From NCBI GenBank assembly GCA_001466705.2, contig LATX02000193.1:434001-498000 (forward strand): a stretch of DNA of 64,000 nucleotides, in the 5' to 3' direction. Shown in pieces: positions 15,434 through 63,444 of the stretch. Position numbers and translations under genes: made by a program. The notes below the pieces were generated by a model that was given only the letters and a program-made list of their open reading frames with translations, ran no database searches and had not been told where the DNA came from. The stretch is from Moniliophthora roreri. Taxonomy: Eukaryota; Basidiomycota; Agaricomycetes; Agaricales; Marasmiaceae. How positions within the stretch are numbered: the first letter of the stretch is position 1; each line of letters begins with the position of its first letter.

Positions 15434-18400
15434 TCACCAGTGACTTGGTTTTACGGGCACTGGTGGCACTTTCTCAGAAGGAGAGTCACCTGCCCTTGAT
15501 CCACCCGACCGCGAACCTCCATAAACCGACAGTTTTCTACCAAATGTGGCGTTTTGAAGATCCTTTCTCGACATTCCGCCAGGCGTTGTTGGTCGAGACC
15601 GAGGAACGCCATTTAGCCTATCCAGCGACTCTTGGCGACTCGAAGCACGACTGTGCGTACGTGAGCCGGTCATTGAGGCAGGGACAGTTGCTCGAGGTAT
15701 AAAATCAACCGGAGAAGAGCCACCTGAACTCGAGTGATCCTCGAACTCGCTCTCCGAGTGTGGCTGAGAACCACCGTTTCCGCCTCGGCCATAAACGGTC
15801 AATGCGTGATCCAAAGAGAGCATTCCATTCATACTCCTGGATAGGCGCTTGATGTCTTTCATTCGACCCTGCATAAACGTCGACATGCGGTTCGTTGCCC
15901 GTGCTGAGATTTGCTCCTCAAAGCTTGTGGCATTATCCTTTCCACCTTTTGCTCGAGCGGTATGCGCGTCAGCAAGGCGAAGAGGTCGTGGTGCAACGAG
16001 AGCAGCAGGCTGTGCTTGTCGCGGAGTTCTAGGGTCATCATCCTCCTCTTCGTACAATGTAGCTTGTCGAGATGGCATTCGCCGGACTCCTCGACGAGAT
16101 GCCGCAGGAGCTTTTGAAACTGTTGAAACCGCCTGAGATAGAACTTGGTCGAAGGATACACTCTGCCGCTTGTTCCTCACTGTCTCGAAGGTATTGGAAG
16201 CTTTCAGTGGCCGTTCGGTGGTTAGATCGACCTCGACACCACGCATACCGACATTGATATCTTTAGTGAGAACGAAGAAGCTACTATCTTTGATTCTGCG
16301 GGCGACGAAACGCCAGCGTGCACGAGCCTTTTATGTGGAGTTCGTTAAATGGCTGTGCAATGTCAGTAGAGAAAGAAAAACTCAACTGGATTAGCCTCAT
16401 GCATGGGATCATAGAGCGACTGCGCAGCAAGGTCTACGTAGAAGCTTTCTACACGTTCAGCAATGCGCTGGAGGAATGACATCAAGACAGTGGAGATCTT
16501 GTGAAGCGCCTAAAATATCCAGTTGTCAGTCAAATGCAAACAGACTACGTGCCTCGATTACTGACCTGCTTTTCCTTTGTTGGATATCTTTTGATGACTT
16601 CACCGACACGAATGAAGGCTTCGTACCCGGAACAAATATCCTCACGGATGTACTCAAGGAATTGAACATCCAAGTCAAGGACATTCCGTGTATACGTTAT
16701 TATTCCGCGCTCGAAAGCGGGTGCCGAGGTAGCGGCGTTACTGACAAACTCGCCAAGTTCTGCAATTTCCTTGCGGGCGTGAATAGCAGCGGGGCTGGAG
16801 GTTGCGTGGGTGATAATGCCGACAACGTCAGGAAGGAGCGATTGGTCGTCACTGTTGGCGATGGAGAAGGAAAGTTGCAGATAGAGCTCCTGAAGCCTAA
16901 GAATGGGAGTTAGCTTCAAATTAAATGAGGATTGTTCTGCACTTACTTCGACCCGAACAAAACCGGGAATCCCGTCTTTGTTAAAAGACGACTCTGTAGT
17001 TGATAGAACTTACGAATGGCATGGGTGGAGAGTAATCCACCCGAGAACCACGTTTTGGCGTCTTTCTTCAACGTATCGACCTCAAAGTATAATGTGGTGA
17101 GACTCTCAACACAGGTTCGCATGTAATCCACCCAGAGGTCATATAGGTCGTTAATCTCTGGCATTTGGAACGAGGGCTTGGGCATGAGGTATCCAATGAA
17201 GTACTTGCCAAGGAGACTGAGCGAGGGGTAGAAATCAGATACTAGATCCATCAAAAGATTTAGAAACCTACCTCATGACCTCTGGATTAGACGTGTGAGC
17301 AACTTCGTCGAACGTGACACTTGCATCCAATCCGGCAGATCCAGCAACAATCATTGTACCACCAGGATGTATCGGCAAGAAGTCGGTCACGTCATATACA
17401 CAGCCGTGAACGCCAATCCACATCTTGCTACCCTCTCTGTGCCCAGTGTGCCTCGCGAGTTCACTCAACGGGATGTACTGTTCATTCTCGCTCATAACTC
17501 TAGGTGTCATGAAGACATCCAGCATGAATCGCCTTTCAGCGAAGGCTTGAGCAAGCATTTCATCAGCACCCTCTTTGGTTACTGCACGATATTTGTAGAG
17601 TGCCTGTCGAATGCCCTTCATGACGGTCTCGTAGAGGGAGAGCGATCCGCACACATAGAGGTATCCACCATGTCCACCGAGTTTTGTTGAAATTACCATG
17701 TCGCAAACCAGTGGCCCTTGATCGACGATGGTTTGATCAATGTACCGAGGTTCCATATGTTTCTCGACCAGATCTTTTTGAACAGGATCGTAAACCAATC
17801 CGCTCGAATCCCTGGAGAATGCAACATGCAATTCAAGCTTGCCTGATGTGACATACTCGCGAAGTTCGTGCTTGTATAGGAATTTCTGCCTCGATTGAAC
17901 TCCGAGGAACAAGATATTCCTGCCGATAACACCTGAACCTATACGTGCTTGCCAAAAGCCACGGAACGGTGCTATCCCAGAGCCACCAGCAAACATGGCG
18001 ACGGGAGCTGCCGGAGAAAGGGGCAGTTGGAAATTCAACGGACGTGAAACACCGACAAGAACCTACAGGAAACACATTTAGCTATTACTACGAGACTGAA
18101 AGGAATCTGTGTCAAACCTTTTCTTCTTCATACCCTCTGCTTGTTAAATGATGCTTCGGTTCATGATCTATCGTAGGGTCGGGATTGAGGAACCCACTAG
18201 ACACACCAGGCCTCGTCACCTTCAAGCCATGAGAGTCTGGCGGCAGCAATAGCGAGCTGACTTGGTGCTCGCTGCGAGCAACAGTCAAGTCGAGTGACTC
18301 GGGCATCAGATCGAATGGGAAAGAGGAGATTGAGTACGTTCGAGGCACCTCAGGTGCAACGAGATTCAGTAACCATGACAGGTCGTCAAGTGAAAAGGCC

Positions 18401-21208
18401 TGGTCCCAGATTTGTTCAGCTACTTCGTTCAGAGCAAGGATGAGAAGGTCGCCTAGGGAACCATTGACTGGCCAGCTATCGGAACTGAGGACACGTAAAG
18501 TTGTTGAGGAGGTGCGAATCATAGTGTGAACCTAGACTTCCTTTATCAGACGCTGCAAGCCACCACAGAGAACATTCTTACATTCATGACCATCTCCTTT
18601 GTAAGGGGAGCAAGTTTGCCTTTGCGGAGAACATCACGCACAGTGAGTCGAGGCTCCATTCGCTCGTCAAGTTTCGAACATTCAGCTTCGTGCTGTGCAT
18701 ATCTCCTCCATTTTGCTGCCGCTGGAGTTGCAGCGTCCAGAGGTACGTTGACGTCGAGAAGATCAACCAACCCTAAAGCACCAACTACTTTCTACAAACA
18801 ATTTCAGTTTGCAGCCTTATCGGGTGCACGATGATGGCCTACCTCAATATCACTCCACGAGTTCATCGGCATAATAGCAAGACGATCACCGGGGATGAAT
18901 GTGAGGCCAATGTTGTGCAAGTCAAAAGTGACTTTTCCTGTAGTCCGCTTCTCATCGTCGTCTATGTTTTGTCTGTTGGTTATTTTCGCCTGGATTAACG
19001 CATCCATGAGCCTTAATTCATTTGAGGAAGATAGAAACGTACCCAAAATCTGCACTCATCATAAGTTCCGCGCATTTCATGTGGTTCAACGTCAAGGACC
19101 GCTTTTGAGCGATAAGGCTCCAAGCGTTCTTTCATTGAGGCTGCGAGAGTGCGGTGAACTTCCTGCCACGGACGACCGATCTCATCTGTAGAGCCAGCAC
19201 CACCACTGGGCCAGAGTCGTAAGCAAAGCGTACAGAAGTAATGATGACGAAACTCACTTGGTTTCAACACGGCCGGTCTTCGCTACAACCTCCAGGAAGC
19301 CGTAGACCTTGTCTGCATGATGTCAGTACAGTGAGCGGCTTATTGAGAAAAAAAAGACCAACATCGGTGAGTTCCCCTGCAGTTAACGAAGTCAGCTAGG
19401 GCACGTCAGGACAAAATGATACAACTGACATGAATCCTTTTTCTCCAGCATAGCTTTCTACGATTGCATCAAGCACACCTATTAGTCGTGGATCACCCGA
19501 AGCCTTGACATAAGGTACGACTGGATAATGATTTTCAATGGCAGCTAAGAACGCTCGAACGTTGAGCGGCATCCATGCACGAAGATGAATAGATTCGATG
19601 CCAAGGAAGGACTTGTAGTTTTGCCGCTAACAGAGTCCACGTTCAGTAAGATGTGTGACTTAGCAAAGGTTAAAACCGGTTACCATCAAGAACGTGTCCA
19701 TGCATTGGAATATCGGTAAAAACAGTCCCGAAAGCGCTGGAAGGCGTTTGGACAACGGAGCAGAAAATTTGGCGTATCCTTGACTGTACGAGTACATCAG
19801 CACATCAGTCCACAGATATGGATGCAGGAACGGGTTTACCCCCATGTTGCTGGCGGTGCAAAATTTTCACCTGCGTGTGGATTGACGGATATTTTGTGGA
19901 AGACATAGGGAAGCTGATCAATCACTTCCTTCAATTTGAGCAACTCGACCAGTAAACCTATAAAGGGTAAGATCATCAAAAAAGAAAATGTTAGACACAA
20001 TATGTCAATAGTATCTAGCAGAAGCACTTACCGTCATTGTCCTTCTCCATCACTCGTTCCTGGCAGCGAGCCATCAGGTCGGGCCCAGGCGTAAAAAGAC
20101 CATGAACCTCCGCCTGAGAAGCGACGTTGTCATGGTATGAGATGATGTATTAACGTGATGGACTTACCATGCACAACAGGAACATTGCTTCACCGCGATC
20201 GTTGAAGATGGGCCAACGGAGGTCCATATTCTCCGCACGAGCGAGATACGGATAGACAGACGTCGGGTCACGGATCTATGTTTTCTTTTAACGCAATAAG
20301 AGAAGACGCGGGCACGGTCACGAACCTTGTAGTTGTGCAAAGACACATCGGACTGAGAGAGGTATGGAAGTGGTCTTCCCAGTCGTACACAAACTTGTCT
20401 GAATGGTATAACAACAGAACGAGGGATACCCTTTGTTTCTGGTTCCTGCCGTAACATGATGAGGATCATTTGATAGACTCAGCTCAAGAAAAAAAATGCT
20501 AACCTCATCTGGTTCTCCTTGAATGTTATAGAATAACTCTTTTCGAGCACCCAAGCTTTTAATTCCTTCATGTCCATCGTTGTTTTCCTCGTAACGCCAG
20601 ATGCTCGCAAGGATTCCCAAACACACAACTGATGCCCAGAGCGCTGCATCTGGAATCGTTTCGGGAGATCCGTCTACCAATGGCAATTCGAGTATAGCCT
20701 CACGAACGCGCCCACGGGCAATCAATCCTGGAAGACGTGCACAAAGATCAGACCACACACGACCGGGAGTGAGCGCCAGTGCAGCCGGCGAAGCGTTCGG
20801 GTCCGCGGGACATAATCCGTGTTTCGTGGAAAGGAAGCCATCTCGCCAGCCTGTAATAGCACCGAGTGTGTCGGCTCGCTCGAGAACCCTACGAGCGGGA
20901 GCGCCTAGAGCCACCGCAAGAACGTCGAGTTCAGGAGGGTTAAGGGAGTCGGCGTTCTGAAGCATGGCTTTTGAGGAAGAAAGGTCTTTGGGTGGTGCTT
21001 TGGGGAGGAGGACTTCGCATATGGTCTTCTTCTCTTTCTCGATGGCAGTTTGGAGAGCGTTGGGTCCTTGTGGTGCACCGTATAAAGACGCGCCGGAGGG
21101 CTGAGGAGATCCTAGCCAGGCGCAACCTCGAGGTCCATACCCTGCGAAAGTGGTACTAGAAACCGGGCAAGAGCCTGTAGTAGAGCCAGTTGCGGGACAA
21201 GCAGACAT
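15434..21208 (-). CDS. Multidomain fusion: IDO-like haem domain, FAD/NAD(P) reductase, cytochrome b5, unknown C-terminus
   Basis: Eighteen exons, from 21208-20504 to 16327-15434, give 1613 residues with every phase consistent. Residues ~100-554 follow the indoleamine 2,3-dioxygenase fold: RVREAILELPLVD, VVIPFRQV...GRPLPYLS, ENMDLRWPIFND, FQCMDTFL, HLRAWMPLNVRAFL. His480, in MGTHRYKVYGFLE, aligns with the proximal haem ligand. The GGSA(G/A)QSS motif of active IDOs is missing. Residues ~555-810 form a P450-reductase-type FAD domain (IPGDRLAIMPMN; R737-TYS). Residues ~812-1000 form a nucleotide domain with AGGSGIAPFRGFW. No FMN (flavodoxin) domain is seen. Residues ~1005-1080 are a cytochrome b5 with HPGG (His1043) and a second ligand, His1067, in AHTSN. 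About 530 residues follow: a helical region, a conserved-looking NPARARWRFVARR segment and a basic, serine-rich tail. There is no signal peptide or membrane helix, so it is probably cytosolic. Domain calls are strong; catalysis is inferred. Confidence 0.88.
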
Positions 21209-44904: not shown

Positions 44905-46433
44905 TATACCGGTACTATGGTCACAATGTTTGTACGACATCTAATGTCCGAGTCACGGACATTTGTAAAAACAAGTTCTGTATGTCTACAAGAAAGCTTA
45001 TACCAACCAGTGATGGATAACAAAGAAGGAAGCATTGCTAGCATAAAACGAAATGCCGGACGCAAAAGAGTATGGGAATGATTGAAGCAAGCCCAACTCC
45101 GACATTATCTTAGACACAATGAGAAGAGTAGTAGTCGTTTGAGTTGTGTTGACGGGAAGCCCGAATCCGAGGGCATGAACAAGAGCCTGGTATTGTCATT
45201 GGCTTTTGGGAGAGAGCACCGATATCTCAGTATCTGGAATTGAGGTGGAGAAAGCCAATATCCCAGCGTGTGATGGATAAAAGTAGAGGCTGCAATTCAT
45301 CCATGACGCATCATATACAAGTAGCGGGGCTGTAGTGATAGCTGGTGACGACTGCGACAGACACAGGTGTTCTCCTTCCGCTCCGTCGAAGCACTCTTCG
45401 TGAATCTGCCCACTTTTGCTCCTTAGGCATCACCCATTGACCAGTCCAAATATCTGGACACTCGTTGCTAACCTTGATCATGGTCTGTCTGGTGTATTCG
45501 CTGATTTCTCGGCTTTTCTTATACTCGTCCTTCCCAACTCAAGCCGTTGTTTCTCACGTTGCCCTTCCATCTCTAGCTTGCGATGGCCAAGTTTAGATCC
45601 CAACACGTGGATATGCCTGTTGTTGTCGTTGTTTGAACATTTTGATGGAGTTGGGAGTCATAGATATCGACAAGAATTAGCTAGGGTCCATATTCATTAA
45701 GAAACTTGACTGTACCAGCAAGTTGCGGATAGAGTCTGTAAAGTCGCCTGTTATACCTTGTGTCGGAACACTCCTGTTTTGCGCAGTAGACACCAGACAA
45801 CTAGCAGTCGTTTGAGAATGGGAGGAATAAACAAAGAGAGCACTGATATCCTAGTATCTGGTATTGAGGCCGAAAAAGCGGAGCCGATATCCGTCGGAGG
45901 TGCAAGTGCGTTGGAGATTGGATGGATAAAGTAGAGGCTGCGATTCATGCATGACGCACCCAAAGTTTGCAGAAGGCTTGTTTTGGTGGGGCTAAAACGA
46001 CTGCGCCCCCGAGCGAAAAGACAATGATAGATCTAGAGTGGCTGGGAATAACTCGAGCTGCCGCCTCGCATTTCTGACACGTGCTTTTCTCAACTCGCTT
46101 GTGCTTCCCACACCACCAACCACCAACCACCATAAACGTCTACTACGTTGTCAGGTACTACAACATTCTCGCTATCAATAATCCCATATTCAGAGTGTCG
46201 AACGTTCAAGAATGCGATTTACCGTGTCGGTGCGATGGAGACATGACGTTTATGTGACGTAGGGCAAACACGCTGGAACCTACTAATGACGCTGGACACT
46301 ACAGATGCAACTCGAATAAAATATCCAGTCGAACGATTCCAGTTCATCTTTTTTCACCATCTACACGGGCAGAGGCCTATTCGGTGAGTACACACGTTTA
46401 TCGGCGAACAATTGCTGAAAACTCTTCGTAGCC
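44905..46433. other. Non-coding stretch with an internal direct repeat
   Basis: Two ~110-130 bp segments at about 45205-45315 and 45826-45960 resemble each other (GAGAGCAC.GATATC...GTATCTGG.ATTGAGG and GGATAAA.GTAGAGGCTGC.ATTCAT, in pieces). One reads as a possible protein C-terminus (STDILVSGIEAEKAEPIS), the other is interrupted by stops. No start or domain is found. The last ~300 bases are the promoter region of the next gene. Confidence 0.4.
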
Positions 46434-49400
46434 ATGTCTTCATTCAAGACAGCATTAAGCAAAGTCAAATCCCGTCTTTCGCCTTCCTCATCTCCATCTC
46501 ATTCCAAGAACCCTTCCCAATCTTCCCTTCCAAATGACATTCAAACCTCGTCCCGTCTCTCTCGCGAACTCGAACGCATCGAACAGAAACGCGATACGGA
46601 AAAGCGTCTTGTAGCAGAGGAAAACCGTCGTAAAGAGGAATTCGAGGAAGCATATGCTGCTGATCCTCCCGAAATCCGTGCACGGTATGGGAATCTGCCT
46701 CTCGTAGAAGCCGAGGAGAAGGAGGAGGAGAATAAGGTTACCTTTTCTTTGGACGAGTTACTAGGTGGCGAAAGCGAGTGGGAAGGAAAACAAGTTACTT
46801 TCCGAGCGCGGATTCACACTCATCGCGTTGTCGGACCCAAACTCGCCTTCCTAGTCCTCCGTCAACAACTCACCACCATCCAAGCCGTTGTCCAAGTCCA
46901 AGACAGCGTCGTTTCAGATACCTTTGTCCGATGGGCTGAACGCCTCAAACACGAGACATTCATCATCGCTTCCGGCACGCTCTCCAAACCCGCCACACCC
47001 ATTCAAAGTACAACAATCCACTCCATCGAACTCCATGTAACGGCATTACATCTCATCGCTGAGCCGATTGAGAGCGTACCGTTTACTGTCTACGCCGACG
47101 ATTTGTCCAAGAAGCCAGACGACACCAAACCCATTCACATATCTGATCGAACTCGTATGGACTCTGCAAACCGAATCATCGATCTCCGTACACCTGTTAG
47201 CCAAAGCATATTCCGCGTATCACACACCATCTCTTCCGCCTTTCGTACACACCTCGATTCACTCGGCTTCATCGAAATCCACACGCCCAAGCTCCAAGCC
47301 GGTGCAACCGAGTCGGGGTCCTCGGTGTTTGCTGTCAAGTATTTCGGCCGAAAGGCGTTCCTCGCACAGTCACCACAATTGGGTAAACAAATGGCCATGA
47401 GTGCGGATTTCGGCAAGGTGTACGAAGTCGGACCAGTGTTTAGGGCGGAGAACTCTAATACGCACAGACACTTGACCGAATTTACGGGGTTGGATTTGGA
47501 GATGACGTTGGAGCAACACTACCACGAGGCGTTGAGGGTTATTGACGGTACCTTGAAGCACATTTTCAAAACGGTATACGAGAGGTGTCGCCGTGAAATT
47601 GACATAATCAAGTCAGCGTACCCAAGCGAGGATCTTGTTTGGTTGGACGAAACACCTGTTTTAGCGTTTAGCGAAGGAATCGCGCTACTTAGGGATTCGG
47701 GATGGACAGACCCCGAATCGGGTGAGGCTCCGTCCGAGTTGGATGATTTGGGTACGAGGGACGAGATTAGATTGGGGCAGTTGGTTAAGGAAAAGTATGG
47801 GACAGATTATTTTATCCTTGACAAGTTTCCTGCTGGACCAAGACCGTTTTACGCAATGCCGGATCCCAAAGACGACAGGTACGCGTTGTTTTTTGATTTT
47901 GCAGTGTGGCTGGTGCTAATGGGTGCGTGTAGGCTCACGAATACATTCGACATCTTTGTCCGTGGACAAGAAATCTTGACTGGCGGACAAAGAATCCACG
48001 ACGCTCAGTTCCTGGAAGATCGGATGGCCCAACTGGGTGTTCAGGTTTCTGGGGCGTTGAGGGAGTATTGTAAAGGATTCAGATACGGATGCGTAAGTCC
48101 CTTTCTTCTTCCCTTTTTCCTTTTCCACTCGTTAACATTGGACGTGATGTAGCCACCACACGCAGGAGGCGGTATCGGTCTTGAACGTGTCGTTATGCTT
48201 CTCCTTGCTCTCCCCGATATTCGACACGCCTCCCTCTTCCCTCGAGATCCCAAGTCTCTGACACCGGATTACTCACCGCCTACACTAAGACATCCGGAAT
48301 GCGATACATTACATCCACCTTGGGAACATACCGACTCTGATCAGATTCCAACTACAAATGAGGCGATCAACGAGCAGATGCCGTTGGAGAAACTTATCGC
48401 AAACTATGGCGATGCATCTAACACTTCATGGACAGACGAACGGTACAAGATTTGGCGTCATCGGGCAACTGGCGCAGCGATTGGATACGTACCCAGCCAT
48501 GGATTCGCCGTTGTCGTTGGTGATCCGTTGTGTGATTCTCACCAATACGGGGAGGTTATACACGCATTTTTACCTTGGATTAGGAAGGAAGTTGGCAAGC
48601 CAATTTGGATTTTGGTTTCGGGGGCGGTGGAGGTACGTCGTCGTCTCTTCTGCTTACTCTTTTCTTATGCTTACATCTAACATTGACTAGGGCGTGCTTG
48701 GAGGTGACTTTGGCTGGCGTTGTATCTCGTGCGTTGCAGAAGACCGTGCCGACCCTGTGGATAACTGTGCAAAAGAGGACAGTGCGATCGCGAAGAAGAT
48801 TAGACATGCGAAGAGGGAAGGGGTTCGAGTGGTCGAGTTTACCAGTGGAGAACAAGGTTCGTTGCTGCTCGTGTTTTTTTGTTTCTAGGCTAACGAGAAG
48901 CGCAAACACACACAGTGCCATCGGAACTTCAAGCCAAGATCGATCGTCGACTTGAAGATTGGTTGAAGGACCGCAAGACCAAGGGCAAGCAGGTTCATTT
49001 GACGGACGTCAAGCCATGGAGGGATATGGAACATCGGATGTATTTTGTTGCTGTTGGACCTGCGGGCGCGGGTTCAGGGAGTGGTTCGGGGACACGGACG
49101 CCTACAAAGGTGACTCTTCAACTTGGCAAGAAAAATACCAAGGACAGGAAGAAGGAAGAAGAGACGTCACTCTTGAGTGGAGTCAAGTCAAATCTTGACG
49201 GTCACACTCCTACACCTTCGGATGTGCTCAGCGTAACATCTACCGGGAGTGCATTGTCGAGTAAATGGGATGGGCAGGAGGTTCATGCAATGGTCGTGTT
49301 GACGCAGTTGGCTCCACAGAAGGGGTATCAAGTCAAGTGGGCATTGGATTTCCCTGGAGCACCAAGGTGAGTTGCAACTGTTTTTGTTTCCTTTCATTCA

Positions 49401-49801: not shown

Positions 49802-51840
49802 GGAGATGGACTGGATTTCATTTCATTGTATTATCTGGTTTAATACATGTTTCCTCTTCAAACCTGCCTTGGAATGGATTTTGCTGTAGATAGTAGATAA
49901 GTATGTACCTTGGAATGGACATATACACATAATGTTGTAGTACTGTAGGTCTTTTGAATATTGAATCTCTTAACATTGTGAGCAGTGGTGTTGTCTCCAT
50001 CCTGCTGTAGTTATGAGCTCAGACTTGATCAGCCAAGTGCTGCAAAAAGCCACTTTGACAAGGTACATCACAAGCACTTGAATGAACATTAATAGCCAGG
50101 TCTCCAGGACTTGGGATGAGCCCTAAGACACTACTGTGACTACTAGTTTTGACTCTTCAGACTTCTTTATTACATATCTTGTCCTCTACTATATAATAAC
50201 CCAACAATGACAGCTATATTTTTACTATGGATACTTCTTACATTCTATTGCTTGCACCTGCTCAATAAGAGGAGCAGTTTGAGAGGCATATTCTGATGGA
50301 AATGACTGTATTGAAGTATCAGTACACAAGTAATGCTGAAGGTATAGTGTAGCATTTAACATACCTGGAGCTATTTCAATATTCTATTTTGATTCTTCTG
50401 CTGTTTGAGACGAGAGAGAAATGGTGGAAGTGGCTCTAGAAGCTCTGGGCAGGGACCAAGGATGTTGGACCACACCCAGAAGCAATAATGGAACAGCCAT
50501 CCTTCAACATTGTGCATTGAAATCCCCACTAGCTTTCTGATTGCCACCAAGACTTGAACATGATATACATGGCCACCAAAGCTTGAGTGAGAACATGGGA
50601 AAGCCAAGTGTAAAGAAGCCTCCTTTATTCCAGAACAACCACAACTAGTTCCAATGGAAACTAACTGAATGTGTTTCTGGTGAAAAAAATCTGACATTTT
50701 AGTCAGAGTTTCCTGAGAGATTGGGAGCTCAATGGTGTCCTGTGGGGCAAGGGCAGCTGAGCCCAATTTAAAAGCAGCAGCTTCCAGAACTCGTGAAGCT
50801 ACTGCATTAGGAATGTCTGAATGTACACTAAAATTCAAACACCAAGTATTGGATATGTAGTGCTTGATGTCAGTAGGTATGTTGGGCATCATCTACAAGA
50901 CTGTTTTAAGCTGGGAGCCATGTATTATTCTACAGGGCACATACCTTTAAGTACTCCCATAGTTGTCTACTGGCATCAAAGAATTTCCATACATTACCTT
51001 GGTCCTCCCCATTTTGAAAATAGTTTGCAATATATCTTCTCAGTTTTCTTGTGAAATTGACCTTTTGAAGAGTCTCCAAAACACTGGCATTGAGGTTGCT
51101 TTGTGAGCAATGATACCCCCAACAAAGCCATGCATAACTAAGAACACTGCTTCTGTGACAACTCAAGTCAGTATGCTACAGTTTTTCTTCTGATTGAACA
51201 CATACTGTGCATCAGATAAACTGTTTTCATCAATTTGAGAGTAGTGATCAATGACATGAAGGAGATGGGTGGCAAGGAAACTATTCTGAGCAGGCTTATC
51301 TCCTAGAAAGAAGTACCCAGACTGTCCAGGATCACATAGAAAATCACTAAAGGATGCATGGAGAATGTGGATCCACTCATCAGGTTGACCAATCTCAAGA
51401 ATAGAGTGCATTCCCTGCAAGGTTGAGATGACCTCTCCATCATGTAGCATCAGCAGTGCTTCAATTTCTTCTGGAGCTGGCCTCAAGTCACTTATATTTA
51501 GCAGCAGGACAACAGCCCAAATGACATTTTGAAGCTTTGAGCGCTGAGGGCAGGATGAAAGAATCTGATGGTAAAGTATGTCCAGATCATAGAAGGGTGA
51601 GGTTGACTCTGGATCTGGATCCAACTGGGGTCTAGGGTGGAGGATAATCTCCAACTGTGTGCAGGGATTGCAATATGCATTGTCAATGAACTTGACAACT
51701 GTGGCAGCATAGATAAACTGCCCAGATGCCTTCTGTACTAGTTTATCAACAACACCAGGTGCAGGCCATGGAACTGGAAATGGGATATGATGAAAAGCAG
51801 GCTTTGCATGGATCTGTTGGAACTCCTTGATAAGAAAGGT
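49690..51840. other. CpG-depleted block
   Basis: By eye I find about three CG dinucleotides between 50041 and 51840, while neighbouring kilobases contain several per 60-base line. TG and CA are abundant. This is the footprint expected from long-term cytosine methylation at CpG followed by deamination. It covers the last two exons and much of the first exon of the NLR gene; CpG rises again from about 51850 and is normal from 52430. The reading frame is nevertheless open. Confidence 0.75.
49802..50370. other. Convergent intergenic region, CpG-free
   Basis: This lies between the 3' ends of the ErdS-like gene and the NLR gene. It contains no recognised gene and essentially no CG dinucleotide. 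Confidence 0.5.
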
Positions 51841-52668
51841 ACTGATATCACGGCCAGGGCTGAATGTGTCATCCAGAGTGACACGATGTAGATATGGGCG
51901 GAAATTATCAATATTGAATGCTTCTCGAATGGGGGGTTCTGGCCTGCTGCAAATGAGAACACGTAATAGTATGTTCTCTGGCAATATAGTTGCAAGGATA
52001 AAAAGGATGTGCTGTTGCTCCTGATGACCATTGCATTCATCCAGGCCATCAATGATGATAAGCCATGGGCAATCATGGAGTTTTCCCAGATCTACAGCCC
52101 TCCAAGGCTCCACAATAAGCTTCTGAAATTGCTTCTCTAGTGTAGCCTGCAGAATGGTTGGATTGCTCCTGAGTGCCTGTTCAATCAAGGGTCGGAGTTC
52201 TGGGATAGAGGTTGTGAGTGCATGGGTGATGGTCAAAACTAATGACCTAGCATTGTTACGTTTTGGATCTCCCCGTGAAAAGAAGAAAGTGGACACCAGA
52301 GATCCCTCCTTCTGGCATAGTTCGGCAATGGTTTGGGCAATTGCTGACTTGCCTGCACCAGCAGGACCATATAGCCAAAATATACGATCCGACCAGGCAG
52401 GGCTATAAACCCATCTATGGATCATCTTCAAAACTTCTTGACGGGTGCCTGGATGGCATTTTGGGGGTGGATAGCGCATTTCTGAATTATGAGTGGCGCC
52501 AACGTCTTTGATAGCGTCCCAAAGATCACGCAGAGCTGTAAAAATGTCAACACTGAAACAATTGTGTAGACAAGGCCACGTACGATCAACGTTGATATAG
52601 TTGATGTCTCGACCGGCATTGTTGAGTTGTCCACCGTATATCCGAAAGCCATGGGAGTTCTTGATCAT
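50371..52668 (-). CDS. NACHT-domain NLR-like protein (STAND NTPase)
   Basis: Three exons (52668-51206, 51152-50945, 50892-50371) give 730 residues. The N-terminus is short and has the GFRIYGGQLNNAGRDINYI segment, like the GG-x-F/L-N-x2-x-G leaders common on mushroom NACHT proteins. The NTPase follows: Walker A GPAGAGKS (101-108), FFFSRGD, Walker B WLIIIDGLDEC (202-212) and CSRPEP. A helical C-terminal part with HASFSDFLCDP and SSVLSYAWLCWGYHC follows, then ~170 residues of no known repeat (no WD40, ankyrin or TPR seen). NLRs of this kind are thought to act in fungal non-self recognition. The 54 bp and 52 bp introns restore the family reading, though the first exon's frame could also run 13 codons further to a stop. 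Confidence 0.82.
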
Positions 52669-54241
52669 TGATTCAGCTGTTTGACCGATGCTCAGATGTA
52701 GAGGTTGAGGGAGATGATGAGGGTCGAGAGTAAAGGTGTGCTAGCAGGCTGTTGAGCGCGTTGTATGGGCATGTCAGTTCCACGAGTAGAGCCTCATGGC
52801 GTTAATCCGAACAAATCTGTCCTATTGCCGCTTTTACCAGTATAGTATGGCAGATATAGGAGTATCCCTTGTACTCAAAGATATTTCAATACTATTGAAC
52901 GACTCAAATATCATAGAATGTAGCGGGCTAAAGCACTGTTAGCAAAGGACCTTCAGTACGTGAAATTAGCTTGTCACTCGCCTTGTTGTCCCGAATTCTC
53001 CATCAAGTTCCATAGGGACCATAAGCGCCTTTCTATGAATCCAGCTTCCTTTAACAGCTTTCAAAAAGCTTCTTTTCAACACAGTGTCGAACCGCATGGC
53101 GGAAAGGCAGGATCTTTGGAACGTCGAATGTTAACATGAGTGAGGAAGAACTTGGAAGGTAGCGGATGCGCAGGCAGTTAAGGTCGTGAACATTTAGCGA
53201 CACAGAGATAGAGCCTTCGGCACGACCCACAGGTGTCGTTCCGGGAGAGAGAACCGAGTCTCGCCTTTGTAAAGAAAAGATTCTGTTCGTGCCAGTCGTT
53301 TACCGATGAGTATAAACCTGGGGTCACTATAGCGTACTGCCCACATCCCAATCTCCGGATCGAGAGTTGATTTGTAGCACTGCAGAGGAAAAATAACGTG
53401 CGATGTGTACGAGTTGTTGAGACTGCCCGAACGGAACACCTCCCTCCCACCTCTGTCGCGTTTTATACTAGCAGGAAAGCCTCTTCGAGTCATTACATAC
53501 CGCCACTCATACTCAGAGATAGGAATTCTCCGTCGGTCGCGATATTTGGAGTTCGTACTCCGCCTGAGGATGCCTAACTCGAATAACTAGTAGCCGGGCA
53601 TTTTTTGCCTGAGGCCGAGGTTCTAGAGAACTCTTGGCACCTGTTGGGTATCGAAAAGAGCATTCTGAACGAGATATCAAGTGAACTCGAGCAAAATATT
53701 GACAATGGCAAGGCTACATTATGGTGGAAGGCAAAACGCGACGCGGCGAACACAGGCGCTACTGGTAGGATTTTTCAATTTGGAAACTAGATTGTGTGTA
53801 CAGCAAAAGGACGAATACAGTTTGGACAAAAACTATGGCAAGTATCATTCCAAGTGTAAAGCTCAATAGAAAGTAAATGGTTTCTGTGTGTCGTGGTATA
53901 TGAGTCATGGATCATATGAAAGACATTGATGCTCAACCACTCAACCATACACTCGTCTCGCCGTGAACGGTGAGCTTCAGCCTTCTTTGAGGCTTGGCTC
54001 TTCCTATGTGTCTTCGGAACGTGTCGTTAGTAAATCCAAGTATACATAAAACACGAAGAGATGCACCTTTTGGCTTGAGGTCCGACATTCAAAACTATCT
54101 GGTGACCTTTCCAATATTCTGTGCACGTCTTCGCAGTCCCTGTATAGGTACAAAGTGGGGTAGCCATGCACTTGAAGGAAGCAGTCGACTAGAAAGCTTT
54201 AACGAGGATTCGCGGGACGAAGGATGGTGTTGAGTGCATGA
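52669..54241. other. Unassigned stretch between NLR gene and retroelement
   Basis: No gene recognised. The frames at 53178-53493 (-) and 53405-53590 (+) overlap each other and have no domains. CpG content is normal here, in contrast to the NLR block. Confidence 0.45.
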
Positions 54242-55858: not shown

Positions 55859-56114
55859 TTCTTAAGGATTTGATGGATCTGGCGGATCAGGATCCTTAAA
55901 ATCAAACCTTATTTAGACTTTCATTTGCAATCAGATTTTGTAAATACCGTTTACAGCTACGTCAGTCCGGGTGATGAGACCGGATGACATGAAGGAAACA
56001 CCGTTGACCAAACGTATGAGGATTCATTAGCATTCTTGTCGATAAAGGCTCCATAAACCTAAAAGTCAAACCAGCACTTACGCCCTCCTTTCCTATAGCC
56101 TTTTATCGATAACA

Positions 56115-59100
56115 ATGTCTAACTCCAATCAATCTCGTATCCCCCAAGTCTCTCTTGTTGACCCAACAACTGTCCGAATTCGCAACTCGGATGATGGGGT
56201 CGGCATTCCGGTTTACAGTTACCATCCTTTGGAATTACTTGAACCAGTTCAAGTTTTTGATACTTCTGTTGGCAATACATCGGGATTATCAGTGGTTCCA
56301 CTCTTTAATGGTGACGACTTCAGAGAATGGAAGCGCAAAGTTTTGGCATATCAGTTAAACCGATTTCGCCGAATACGGGAATGGTTATGTTACGGACTGA
56401 CTACTGGCACCGGAGATACTGCTGTCGCTCCTGACATGGAAGTTGTCAAAGAATGGAAAACCTCTAATGCCCAAGCTCTTGGCCTCTTTCAGCTTAAATT
56501 GAGCCCTACTTTGCAGTGGATTATCAAAGATACTGCTAAAGAAACATGGGACGCTTTGAAAGCTGAATATGACGTACCAAGCCTTCTGGAAATATTTACC
56601 TTCTTCCAAGGCCTCGTCATGGCACGTACTGCCGAAGGTCAAAATCCCGATCATAGTGCCAATCTCATCAGACAATGTGTTGCGAAATTGTCTGAGAACG
56701 ATTTCCCTGTTCCCTCCAATTTCCAGGCAATGTTCCTCCTTAACTCACTTCCCAAGTCATATGAAACAGTTAAGACCCAGATGTTCGTCTCCAACAAAGG
56801 GAAGGATCTTACCTTCGACAATATCCTCCCCTTCATAAAACAAGAATATAATAGACGACACATGGATGGGGTTGCCGCATACGCCACTCGGATCTCTGGT
56901 GTCTAATGATACACCGGTCAGAGCCCAAATTGGAATAGACAGAAGAAATTCCGTCCTCACAACCCTAATCCAAATTCTGGTAAAAATCAAAACCAGAACT
57001 CTGGGAATCAAGGCAATAAAGGGAAACAGCCTGCGCAGCCCCAAAATAATCAACAAAAATCTGATGGGAAGAAGAATAACAAGAAGAAGTCGAACAAAAA
57101 AGGAAAAGAGAAAAAGCCTAATGCAGCAATCTCAGTCATGATGGCTGAGATCACAGATTTGCCTCAAAAGGAAGAACCTCAACCTCCTAAAGAGGAAAAA
57201 CCTTCTGATGATGGCAAAGTTCCAACTAAATGCATCAACCATTTCTGCACTAGTCCAGATAAAACTATTTATGGCATCTTTATGACTGGATGAAATCGCA
57301 AAACATGGTATGTTTGCAAACAATGCTACAATATGCATTCCCATTCCTTTGCCAAGCAGAAAATCCTCCAAAAAGCAGTATTAGTACACCTTCCTATCGA
57401 TGAAAGGGCATACGCTTTTCTCCAAGGAGATTTTCAGCTTAGCAGAACTTTCACTGTCCTTGAGGTGGATAAAATTCCTCCTAAGACCCCTCCTACTACT
57501 CAGGAGGAGATCAATATTGGAGATATTTTTCCATCAGAATCATTCAAGCATATTTTCGGTAATCTTCCATCCGGAAAACATCTTATGACGCACAAGTACC
57601 CTAACCAGGTATGAGATGTTATTCCAACTGAAACTTCAGAGTCTACTGTTCCTCGTAATCCTATAAATAGATTCGAGAACAAACAACCTCACAAATCGGA
57701 CCATGGTCATGCCATGAGGAGATGGTCGCGATTCATGGAAGCCAAAATCCAGGCTTGGATTCCGAAATCACAATATGACCTGACAATGATTCCCATGCCC
57801 AAGAATATCAAATTTCACATCGAGCTTCTAAATAATAATCTATCTATTGATTCAACACTTTTTGCATCACATTGATTTGCAAAAATTATACTTGATTTAA
57901 TGGAAACAAAAAAGGATTATATATGAAATAGAGCTCAACAACTCGGACATAATTACAAGAAGCAACCTGCAATAGTTGACTTCTTAGATGCATTGGACGT
58001 ATATGCAAAGTATCCACAATTGACTTCCTTTGCCCCTCATTCCACTCCAATCTCTTTTTGCTCAGAAGCCTGTCATAAATGTACCTGGCGAGATGAACAC
58101 CATACAGAATTTTGTGGCATGGGACTCTGGCAAATGGCCGATCATGATGATACTGGTGACAAATATTGGATCTTCTTCACACGGATCAGAAACACCTTGT
58201 TCCGACTCCATGATCCGATAGAACCACTGGTGGAGGTTCTAAACTGTGTCGTGACGAATGAGCAAAACCTCTATTCTAGGAATTATTCCAAAATGGAATT
58301 CCATCGTCACCCTTCAGCAGTTTGTAAAGAAGATTGCCAATGTTGCACCAGTGGACTACCAAGGCATATCACATACCTTAGTAAGGGGGAGTACAAATTC
58401 AATCAGATTGCTCCTGGAAAATATGTTCATGAAGACCCAGCTAACCCTGGGATCAAAGCAGGTAAACAATTCAAATTTGGTGATCACCCTGTTGACTATA
58501 TCGACTGGAATACACCAAATCCATCCAGAGCACCAACCCCCAAACTCAACCAAGACTTCAAAACAGTCTTCTGTGTTACATGCAATTATCCACATTATCT
58601 TGATAATTGGCCAGTCACTGCAACTTGCATGCCTATCATGTTCAACTCTGTTCAAGAAGGTTTTCTGCCGAAACGAACCCCACGTGGCTTTAACAAAAAA
58701 TCTATCAATAAGCCATTTATGGAAGCCCTTTCTTCGGCAGAAGATCCAATTCTCCTTAAAGACCCTTGGAAAAAGGAGAAAGATTATGCTGAAACATGGT
58801 TAAATAAGGAAAGAAACAACAAAGCTTGGGATTCACTTAATCCCCAAAATCCTTGGAATGCAAGACTTCCTCCGAAACCCCAAGAACGTCCAATTGTCAA
58901 GAAGTCTGAAAAGGAACTTCAGGAACAGCGAAAGAAGATTGCCCAAATGTTCCAAGACAAGGGATTAGCTGCCGAGCACAGATGTGACTCACCGGCCTGC
59001 CAAGCTAAACACCCCGATGTCATTGACAAATGGATGGGGAAGAGACCATATCGATCAGCAACCATAGCTGATGATATTCAGATCAAATTAAAGGAAGAAT

Positions 59101-59557
59101 CAGCGGCAATTCAAAAAGAATTAGAAAAGAACTGACAAACTACTAAAGACTTCTTTGGTAATATTTCCAAATGTTTCCCCGCAATTCAGTCTAATCTTTT
59201 GCCACAAGTAAAAATTGGCGACAAAATGTTCCAATTTGGCAAAGAACCGACTCCACCTCCTTACAAGTTCAACATTGGGGAAAACACCTTTAAGAAAATT
59301 ACCAAACAGGAAGCCCACAACATGGTTTTAGAACACTTTGGGGACAGAAAACTTTTCCAACCCAAGCCTGTTTGACCTCAAACTCCTTACTATTCTAAAG
59401 GAGATACTCTTGAGGTTCCTAACATAGATATAGAGGCACCATCACCGCCTCCCAAACCAGTAATGCCGGATCTGGGAATCAACATTTCTTCCATAACGGT
59501 CAATAATCCTCAACCGGAAGTTCCCGAATTTATTCAAGGTTCTTCAAACATCCAAGC
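56115..59557 (+). pseudogene. Copia gag, copy 1, with multiple stop codons
   Basis: The intact start (263 codons to 56906) is a UBN2/copia-type gag: FNGDDFREWKRK, a helical core (LFQLKLSPTLQWIIKDT) and KTQMFVSNKGKDLTFDNILPF. Beyond it the same reading continues, interrupted at 56904, 57291, 57612 and other places, and it breaks up between 57830 and 57990. A further 380-codon open part (57993-59135) is rich in Cys/His clusters (CKEDCQCC, CVTCNYPH, CDSPACQAKH). Several stops are CGA-to-TGA changes relative to copy 2. Confidence 0.8.
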
Positions 59558-59558
59558 N

Positions 59559-61229
59559 GTCATATGAAACAGTTAAGACCCAGATGTTCGTCTCCAACAA
59601 AGGGAAGGATCTTACCTTCGACAATATCCTCCCCTTCATCAAACAAGAATATAATAGGCGACACATGGATGGGGTTGCTGCTTACGCCACTCGGATCTCT
59701 GGTGTCCAACGATACACCGGACAAAGCCCGAACTGGAATGGACAGAAGAAGTTCCGTCCTCGCAATCCTAATCCAAATTCTGGTAAACCAAATAATCAAA
59801 ACCAGAACTCTGGGAATAAAGGGAACAAAGGCAAACAGCCTGTGCAACCCCAACAAAATCAACAGAAATCTGATGGGAAGAAGAACAACAAGAAGAAGTC
59901 GAACAAGAAAGGAAAAGGGAAAAAGCCTAATGGAGCAATCTCAGTCATGATGGCTGAGATCACAGACTTGCCTCAAAAGGAAGAACTGCAACCTCCCAGA
60001 GAGGAAAAACCTTCCGATGATGGCAAAGTTCCGACTAAATGTGTCAACCATTTTTGCACTAGTCCAGATAAGACCGTTTATGGTATCTTTACTACTGGAC
60101 GAAATCGCAAAACATGGTATGTCTGCAAGCAATGCTACAATATGCATCCCTATTCCTTCGCTAGGCAGAAAATTCTCCAGAAAGCAGCATTAGTACGCCT
60201 TCCCATCGACGAGACGGCATATGCTTTCCTACGTGGAGATTTTCAACTTAGCAAAACTTTCACCGTCCTAAAGGTGGATAAAATTCCTCCTAAGACTTCT
60301 CCAAATACAAAGGAGGAGATCAATATTGGAGATATTTTTCCATCAGAATCATTCGAGCATATTTTCGGTGATCTTCCATCAGGAAAACATCTAATGAGGC
60401 ACAAGTACCCTAACCAGGTACGAGATGTTATTCCAACCGAAACTTCGGAGTCAACTGTTCCTCGAAATCCTATTAATACATTCGAGAACAAACAACCTCA
60501 CAAATCGGACCATGGTCGTGCCATGAGGAGATGGTCGCGACACATGGAAGCCAAAATCCAGGCCCGGATTCCGAAAGCTCAATATGATCCAACAATGATC
60601 CCCATGCCTGAGAATGTTAAATTTCACATCGAGCTTCTAAANTGCCACAAGTCAAAATTGGTGACAAAATGTTCCAATTTGGCAAAGAACCGACTCCACC
60701 TCCTTACGAGTTCAATGTTGGGGAAAACACTTTTAGGAAAATCACCAAGCAGGAAGCCCGCAATATGGTACTTGAACATTATGGGGATAGGAAACTCTTC
60801 CAACCCAAACCTGTTCGACCTCAAACTCCTTATCGTCCGAGAGGAGAAACACTTGAGGTTCCTGATATTGACATAGAGGCACCATCACCGCCTCCCAAAC
60901 CAGTAATGCCGGATCTGGGAATCAACATTTCTTCCATAACGGTCAATAATCCTCAACCGGAAGTTTCCGAATTTATTCAAGGTTCTTCAAACATCCAAGC
61001 TTGTGTTGATATCAACATTGCGGATGTTGTTCCTCTTGATGACAAAGATTCTCAAGGGAAAAATGGAGGGAAGAACCTGAATATGGGAGACTTTGATAAA
61101 GAAGATTGGGACGAAAATTATAATGATTATGTTCATAACGAAGCGGACTACTATGATTGGTATGATCAAATTGATCTTAAGAGCAGCATCACTAATGAAT
61201 TACTAGAAACAAACATTGATTCCGAGTGA
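59559..61229 (+). pseudogene. Copia gag, copy 2, interrupted by an assembly gap
   Basis: It starts abruptly after an n inside the gag core (SKSYETVKTQ region of copy 1). The frame is open from 59584 across a lysine-rich linker and a Cys cluster (CVNHFCTSPDK...YVCKQCYNMH) to 60641, where another n replaces about 1.4 kb seen in copy 1. It resumes to a stop at 61229 after an acidic C-terminus. No in-frame stop lies outside the gaps, so this copy is younger or better preserved than copy 1. Confidence 0.78.
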
Positions 61230-61235
61230 ACAACA

Positions 61236-61454
61236 ATGCTCAATGAACAATTTCTTTCTAACTCTGTAAATAGTAACATTGTACAATGTATGATGACTAA
61301 AATTAGTGATAAAAACGTTGTATCTGTAGAACCACAAACAAATGAATGGGCTCTCGATACTGCTGCAACCAATCACATAACTAATCATTCGTCATACCAA
61401 TTCACTTGGAGAAACCCATACGGTCAAACTTTATCTGGTGTTCTATTGGCCTAA
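61236..61454 (+). pseudogene. Copia aspartic protease fragment
   Basis: EWALDTAATNHITNHS resembles the copia protease active site (usually D-S/T-G-A-T). Here the Gly is Ala, and the frame stops at 61452, with the continuation in another frame from 61438. The protease is therefore probably dead. Confidence 0.65.
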
Positions 61455-63444
61455 AGCAAATCATAGACTTCTAGCTGGGAATAAATATATCGTAAATGGT
61501 TACGATATTAAATATTCGTTCCCAGAAACCTCTATAATTACAAAAGCTAATGGTAAACTCTTTATGTCACTATTTGCGAAACCAGAAAGAGATGGGTATA
61601 CGTACCTACATGCTTCCTCTGTCAAGCAGAACGAAGCAGTTACCATTCTTGCTTTCAAGATTAAATCAACTGATCCTGTAATTGCTCATAACAGATTTGG
61701 TCATATACCCTATCGTGTATTGACAAACTGCATGAAGCATTGCANGAATAAACGCTTAGAGTGGAAAACTCCAACCGAAATCTATAGTAAGAAAGTACCT
61801 GATGTTTCTTATTTCCGGACACCAGGATGTTCAGCGTATGTTTTTATTCATAAAGAACAATGCAAGAACAAACTTTCAAAGAAAATGGAACGTATGACAT
61901 TTCTAGATTACGCTCCTAATACTAAAGGATATCGGTTTATGCGACAGGATAAGACGATATTTACGGCTGCTCAAGCAGACTTCGATGAAGAAGATTTTCC
62001 GTACTCGTCTAATTCAGTTGATCGAACCTTACAATCAACCAATGGAATCTTATCTATTCCTTTTACTGGTATTAATCGACCACGATCGGATAATGATGAT
62101 GACGGTCATCAAAATCACGATCAAGGGGGAGGAAATGATGATGATGACGATCATCCTGATTTCCCTCAACCTAATAATCCCAACGGAGGTAATGATCCTG
62201 TGGATCATCATTATAACCAGAATGATGGTGTGGATCAATCACGACCTAAAAATACTGCACCGCCGCAAAACCCAATAGACCCTGAAATAAATAATATAAA
62301 CAGGAGAATGCAACGAAGGGTACAGATGTTTGACCCAAGTCAACATCAACAAAGTCATCCTAAAAGACAGACTCGTGTACCACAGCGGTATGGAGACGCA
62401 ATGGGTCGTATGCCTATCCGAGATAGACTACGTCTACGTACATATAACAACTTACCTGATTCTAATGATCAAGGTGATAGTCCTGATCAAGAATTCATAC
62501 AAGGTAGTAGTCGTGACCATGAGCAGGATATTCCACCTGCTGAACATCAAATACAACAGTCAAATGAGGATGAAATGGAACAAGATCATAATGATATAGA
62601 AATTGATCGAACTCCACCTCAGACTGATGATGAAATGGTCAATTATGTACAAATTCTTTCTCAGGAAGGGGGAGTTCGTTACCTTGATTACATTATGGCA
62701 TCAGCATTGTCGATTGACAACGTACGTCAATGGCAATACAAAGACATTCTAACTCTGTCAAAAGACGAACAGAAGAAATGGATGGCTGCATGTCATGACG
62801 AACTCAAATCACTACAAGAACGTAACGTTTACAAACTTGTAGATTTACCTCAAGGTCGAAAAGCGATAAAATCCAGATGGGTTTTTGACGTCAAAACAGA
62901 TGGCCGTTATAAGGCACGACTTGTAGCAAAAGGTTTCTCACAAGTCGAAGGAATAGATTATGACGAATTGTTCTCTCCTGTAGTACACTTTGAAACTGTT
63001 CGCGTATTACTTGCACTAGCCGCTCTTGAGGATTGGGATATCCAAGCGCTAGATGTCAAAACAGCCTTTCTCTATGGCGAACTTGACAAGGAGATTTACA
63101 TGGAACAACCACAAGGATTCGTCAAAGGTTCAAATAAAGTTTGGTTATTACGCCGTGCATTATATGGTTTAAAACAAGCCTCTTTATCATGGTGGTACCA
63201 ATGCACTAAATCCATGGCTAAGCTAGGATTTAAGCGCTGTATATCAGATGCTGGTGTATATTACTTTATATGTGGAAATGATATAATCATTGCCATTGTA
63301 TATGTAGATGATGCGATTTTCATGGGTTCAAATTCTAGCCTTCTTCATTCAAAGAAGAAAGAATTCATGAAAATATGGGAATGTAGAGATTTAGGCGAAC
63401 CAAGAGAATTCCTACAAATGCGGATTACTCGAGATCGAAAGTGA
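61438..63444 (+). pseudogene. Copia pol: GAG-pre-integrase, partial integrase, reverse transcriptase
   Basis: The frame is open apart from one n at 61745. It begins within the protease-integrase spacer (MSLFAKPERDGYTYLHAS, HNRFGHIPYRVL), jumps at the n over the integrase catalytic core, and resumes at the integrase C-terminal part (KTPTEIYSKKVPDVSYFRTPG, landmark). An Asp/Asn/His-rich linker at ~62085-62260 leads to the RT: KARLVAKGFSQVEGIDY, QALDVKTAFLYGELDKEIYM and the YVDD catalytic motif at 63301-63312. It ends at a TGA where CGA would keep the frame. Confidence 0.82.

Follow-up and report, generated by a model that had tools for sequence, protein, structure and literature searches.

Several enzymes carry a catalytic domain and an NAD(P)H reductase on a single polypeptide, including P450-BM3, P450foxy, nitric oxide synthase (NOS), flavohaemoglobin and nitrate reductase. 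In diflavin enzymes, flavin mononucleotide (FMN) allows a donor of hydride to deliver its electrons one at a time, and BM3, P450 reductase and NOS all possess an FMN/flavodoxin domain. We know of no self-sufficient flavocytochrome with an IDO-type haem, or with an FMN-less sulfite-reductase-type module followed by cytochrome b5. Here we describe a gene on the reverse strand of a 64,000-nucleotide (nt) stretch of the Moniliophthora roreri genome (contig LATX02000193.1; "the window" denotes this whole stretch), whose predicted product carries a haem catalytic domain of IDO type and a reductase in one chain, the structural hallmark of a self-sufficient haem oxygenase. Compared with IDO1 and IDO2 (PF01231), it has an additional fused reductase, b5 and C-terminal domain; compared with free IDO1 and its supporting P450 reductase and b5, which are separate proteins and include the FMN of P450 reductase, it is a single chain without an FMN domain.

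The haem domain resembles the heme-dependent aromatic oxygenase superfamily (TDO, IDO, PrnB, MarE and SfmD) in its IDO/TDO-type fold and in its His-ligated haem, the latter predicted here (PMC11904535; PMC11791213), and the available parts of these two papers mention no member to which a reductase is fused. Parts comparable to those of the present chain, namely NADPH-P450 reductase and cytochrome b5, are reported to support IDO1 in vitro in the accessible portion of a 2026 preprint, which still calls it unclear what reduces IDO in cells (PMC13142367). We propose that the predicted chain is a self-sufficient haem oxygenase, in which electrons would pass from NADPH through FAD and b5 to an IDO-type haem held by His480 for the activation of O2, the substrate probably being one other than tryptophan; we put the probability of this reading at roughly 0.55. 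Each part is already known and the sequences are public under misleading names; what appears to be new is their combination in one chain. No description of that combination, with its FMN-less sulfite-reductase-type module and b5, was found in the literature searched, partly by narrow queries.

Gene model and domain evidence

The gene was spliced by hand from GT-AG sites and the model was rechecked. The coordinates, strand and single spliced frame of 1613 residues given in the original prediction (Table 1) proved right, with 18 exons separated by 17 introns, all GT-AG and 50–74 nt long. Each of the 17 exon junctions is embedded in sequence that needs no additional gaps when aligned to homologues from three other species (Marasmius crinis-equi, M. 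oreades and Serendipita vermifera). A 34-nt candidate for the last intron was rejected, as it leads to an early end at 1338 residues; an intron of 59 nt instead restores the reading frame that the homologues share. A publicly deposited M. roreri protein, P0001 (1609 residues), is identical to our model from residue 23 onward and differs in its start alone; the ATG of the original prediction is preferred because the P0001 start lacks the Cys-Pro (CP) pair that most homologues have (76/116 rows of the family alignment, over which all residue conservation was counted). When the haem domain was used as a query against the 59.4-Mb genome, eight matches were returned, all at this gene. The single chain is a predicted protein, read from one open frame across the 17 introns.

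The four Pfam domains on which the prediction turns, IDO, FAD_binding_1, NAD_binding_1 and Cyt-b5, all score above their curated cut-offs. Pfam IDO gives 44.5 bits against a cut-off of 26 over residues 150–362 of the spliced protein, and a predicted model of a homologue aligns to IDO2 over its residues 46–480, equivalent to about 96–530 here. These independent tests support an IDO fold for the N-terminal domain, and the residues first assigned to it (100–554) were about right by fold. H480 pairs with the proximal haem ligand H346 of IDO1 in unguided alignments and is kept in 115/116 rows, as had been claimed. The counterpart of the distal F163 of IDO1 is Phe in 113 rows, a second His, H425 (19585–19587, reverse strand), is invariant in all 116, and the haem core is conserved to the same degree as the NADP domain. 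The codon of H480 lies in a micro-exon of 14 nt, which automatic gene models could easily drop, and the proximal ligand with it.

In the reductase module, FAD_binding_1 scores 37.7 bits (cut-off 32.3) and NAD_binding_1 38.3 bits (cut-off 22). The RTYS motif of the former is present in 114 rows, the other two being gaps, and S894 and R895 of the latter in 115; this retained S-R motif suggests a preference for NADPH. F995, just past NAD_binding_1, pairs with the C-terminal Tyr of the Escherichia coli sulfite reductase flavoprotein and is Phe in every row. That flavoprotein (1ddg, E 1.1e-21) is also the best solved match of the reductase, with P450 reductases, methionine synthase reductase and NOS behind it in sequence comparison, while NCBIfam sulfite reductase models score far under their cut-offs. 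Of the P450-reductase-type module originally described, the FAD and NADP modules hold, whereas the nearest relative is a different one and the FMN domain is missing. The chain shares these two modules with sulfite reductase flavoprotein, P450 reductase and NOS reductase; unlike them, it has b5 in place of FMN. No FMN/flavodoxin domain was detected by Pfam at E up to 1, nor among the listed domains of 120 homologues. The same Pfam search returned nothing beyond the four domains named, and so neither the molybdopterin domain of nitrate reductase, nor the oxygenase domain of NOS, nor a globin. Cyt-b5 scores 50.6 bits (cut-off 23.7), with its HPGG motif and, as predicted, both haem-ligand histidines, H1043 in 113 rows and H1067 in 115 (the remaining three and one are gaps); its closest solved structure is cytochrome b5 type B (3ner, E 1.6e-13).

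Proposed electron path and competing explanations

According to our proposal, NADPH would reduce FAD, which would hand single electrons to the b5 haem, with b5 standing in for the FMN domain as one-electron carrier; b5 would reduce the IDO-type haem, likely held by His480, and this haem would in turn activate O2 for reaction with a substrate, probably other than tryptophan. The parts required for each electron step are present in the chain. We infer its haem and FAD occupancy from sequence, and the order NADPH, FAD, b5, IDO-type haem from analogy with known flavocytochromes. The likeness to P450-BM3 drawn in the original prediction holds in logic and not in kinship or parts. As a whole, that interpretation is partly supported, and, of the readings that the sequence suggests, a self-sufficient haem oxygenase is the most plausible.

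IDO needs one priming electron for dioxygenation and re-reduction every time for mono-oxygenation, as stated in the available part of PMC12921851. A permanently fused reductase would fit mono-oxygenation better, because reduction is then needed at every turnover. In the literature, as far as the sources extend, mono-oxygenation by MarE (PMC11904535) and by IDO has been run with ascorbate. Taken further, the gene may represent another natural line of self-sufficient haem oxygenases alongside P450-BM3/P450foxy and NOS, in which a His-ligated IDO fold, an FMN-less sulfite-reductase-type reductase and a b5 one-electron gate in one chain would perform NADPH-driven mono-oxygenation of a fungal metabolite; we consider the odds of this to be about even. 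If so, self-sufficient haem catalysis would be widened to the His-ligated IDO fold, which would be of use for biocatalysis, and b5 in the place of FMN would be a different answer to the splitting of a hydride into single electrons. A fungal gene from at least three phyla, whose records now name it as a sulfite reductase, a nitrate reductase or NOS-related, would also gain a coherent and testable function. As a flavin reductase and b5 seem to be tied to an IDO-type haem here, the question of IDO reduction becomes testable on one protein.

R231 of IDO1 is the Arg for the tryptophan carboxylate. Tryptophan is not a likely substrate of the chain, because R231 falls in an alignment gap and because four near-full-length IDO matches without the reductase/b5 fusion exist elsewhere in the M. 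roreri genome (three with read-through stops, maybe introns), so that a second tryptophan dioxygenase would be less needed. Many further IDO matches (G000 C88, C23, C110, C99) occur in the same genome; the majority are partial and some contain stops, and the IDO set of this fungus is apparently expanded.

A number of points weigh against our proposal. The assignment of H480 as haem ligand, likely as it is, comes from sequence-profile alignment, and one row, P0029, has Arg at this position in a model that also lacks the FAD and b5 domains. The counterpart of the distal S167 of IDO1 is Met, Cys or Val in 116/116 rows and never Ser, and the gap at R231, seen with both phmmer and hhalign, spans F226–R231, so the pocket cannot be compared with that of IDO1. 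Mono-oxygenation is argued from logic, and the resting state of IDO1 is ferric, which leaves room for a fused reductase that does no more than prime a dioxygenase or rescue it. In the available text of PMC13142367, the in vivo role of these IDO1 reductants is called unclear and hypochlorite is favoured as IDO1 activator; for PrnB, which belongs to the same superfamily, the accessible part of PMC11791213 reports that the purified enzyme showed no activity with the redox systems used.

The competing explanation that survives best is that the protein is a true dioxygenase of an indole or another aromatic compound, in which the attached reductase and b5 serve just to prime the haem and to restore it once it has been oxidized. 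Both the IDO fold and the proximal His are consistent with this, and P450 reductase and b5 are reported, in the part of PMC13142367 available, to act in trans on IDO1. The unfused IDO matches in the genome and the gap at R231 argue against it, and a permanent 1:1 reductase would be costly for a single priming electron; we regard it as possible and rather unlikely. A nitric oxide enzyme, either a nitric oxide dioxygenase like flavohaemoglobin or a nitric oxide-forming one, is distinctly improbable: the haem-FAD-NADP order resembles that of flavohaemoglobin and NOS, the homologue P0006 is annotated "related to nitric-oxide synthase", and the NOS reductase structure 1f20 aligns over residues 724–995 (E 5.3e-13), whereas neither an NOS oxygenase nor a globin domain is present at E up to 1 and the label is explicable by the reductase part alone, which fits sulfite reductase flavoprotein better. 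Still less probable is a non-oxygenase whose haem domain acts as a sensor of haem, O2 or redox state that controls the C-terminal helical domain, additional inputs coming from the CP dipeptides and a kinase-like site. The conservation of that orphan domain and the presence of the CP pairs and the RRLS-like motif would suit such a sensor, yet a plain sensor would not need a catalytic-type reductase kept with its haem domain, nor a haem core conserved as much as the NADP domain. It is very improbable that gene modelling has wrongly joined haem and reductase parts that belong to separate transcripts, since the chain is known from gene prediction but keeps one frame over all its introns, has junctions aligned with homologues, and is matched by fusion in most listed homologues.

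Distribution of the fusion family

The homologue search found 264 proteins, and all four domains are fused in 110 of the 120 listed, the other 10 lacking one or more in their models. The fusion had been regarded as this fungus's own; it also occurs in other Basidiomycota, in Ascomycota and in the chytrid Gaertneriomyces semiglobifer (phyla checked for three of the source names). The family falls into at least two clades. In a quick tree, one clade is all ascomycete among its named rows and has a different haem-domain motif (e.g., GERTEI versus DRGEAM), and both kinds are present together in three strains. The chytrid is placed beside basidiomycetes in this weakly rooted tree, and the distribution may reflect either an ancient origin followed by losses or horizontal transfer. 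Database names of the homologues conflict, ranging over sulfite reductase, nitrate reductase, NOS-related and IDO. P0224 (804 residues) is a divergent IDO-FAD-NADP chain with 37% identity and a long branch in the tree, perhaps from an early-diverging fungus.

Terminal regions and other features of the window

CP is a known haem-regulatory motif. Within the first 60 residues, 76 rows have two CP dipeptides, nine have one and 31 have none, some of the last being truncated models; by analogy, the pair is possibly haem-regulatory here. The C-terminal helical domain shows an identity of 0.46 to the other rows. Its own search gave 19 matches, of which 12 aligned to the family and the other seven carry b5, so all of them look like pieces of the same IDO-reductase-b5 family. 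A fragment model of this domain (predicted local distance difference test score 81.6) has no significant match in the PDB. Despite the poor conservation of the tail, R[RK]LS, RRL[ST] or KRLS occurs within the last 260 residues in 103/116 rows, which makes it a possible kinase site.

Table 1. Coordinates of the gene, its parts and other features of the window
Feature	Position	Strand	Remarks
Whole gene	15434..21208	-	18 exons, 17 introns, coding sequence of 4842 nt, 1613 residues; ATG at 21208, stop ends at 15434; GT-AG gene model
Two Cys-Pro dipeptides	21164..21199	-	Residues 4–5 and 14–15; candidate haem-regulatory motifs
IDO-fold domain, predicted haem-binding	19132..20923	-	Residues about 96–525
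Micro-exon, 14 nt	19363..19376	-	H480 codon (19369–19367), counterpart of IDO proximal haem His
FAD_binding_1 domain	18277..19051	-	Residues 552–758 (Pfam); RTYS motif
NAD_binding_1 domain	17634..17996	-	Residues 834–954 (Pfam); contains S894-R895
Cytochrome b5 domain	17183..17465	-	Residues 1011–1086 (Pfam); expected haem ligands H1043 (17369–17367) and H1067 (17297–17295)
C-terminal helical domain	16241..17170	-	Residues about 1091–1345; no named family
K-R-L-S	15839..15850	-	Residues 1476–1479; possible basophilic-kinase site in poorly conserved tail
Open frame, class II tRNA synthetase (D, K, N) and OB-fold domains	46419–48149	+	
Open frame, NACHT/NPHP3_N NTPase domain	51166–52740	-	NLR-like
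Copia-type retroelement pieces	56046–63441	+	gag-like, SH3-like and reverse transcriptase domains; stretch of lower guanine-cytosine content
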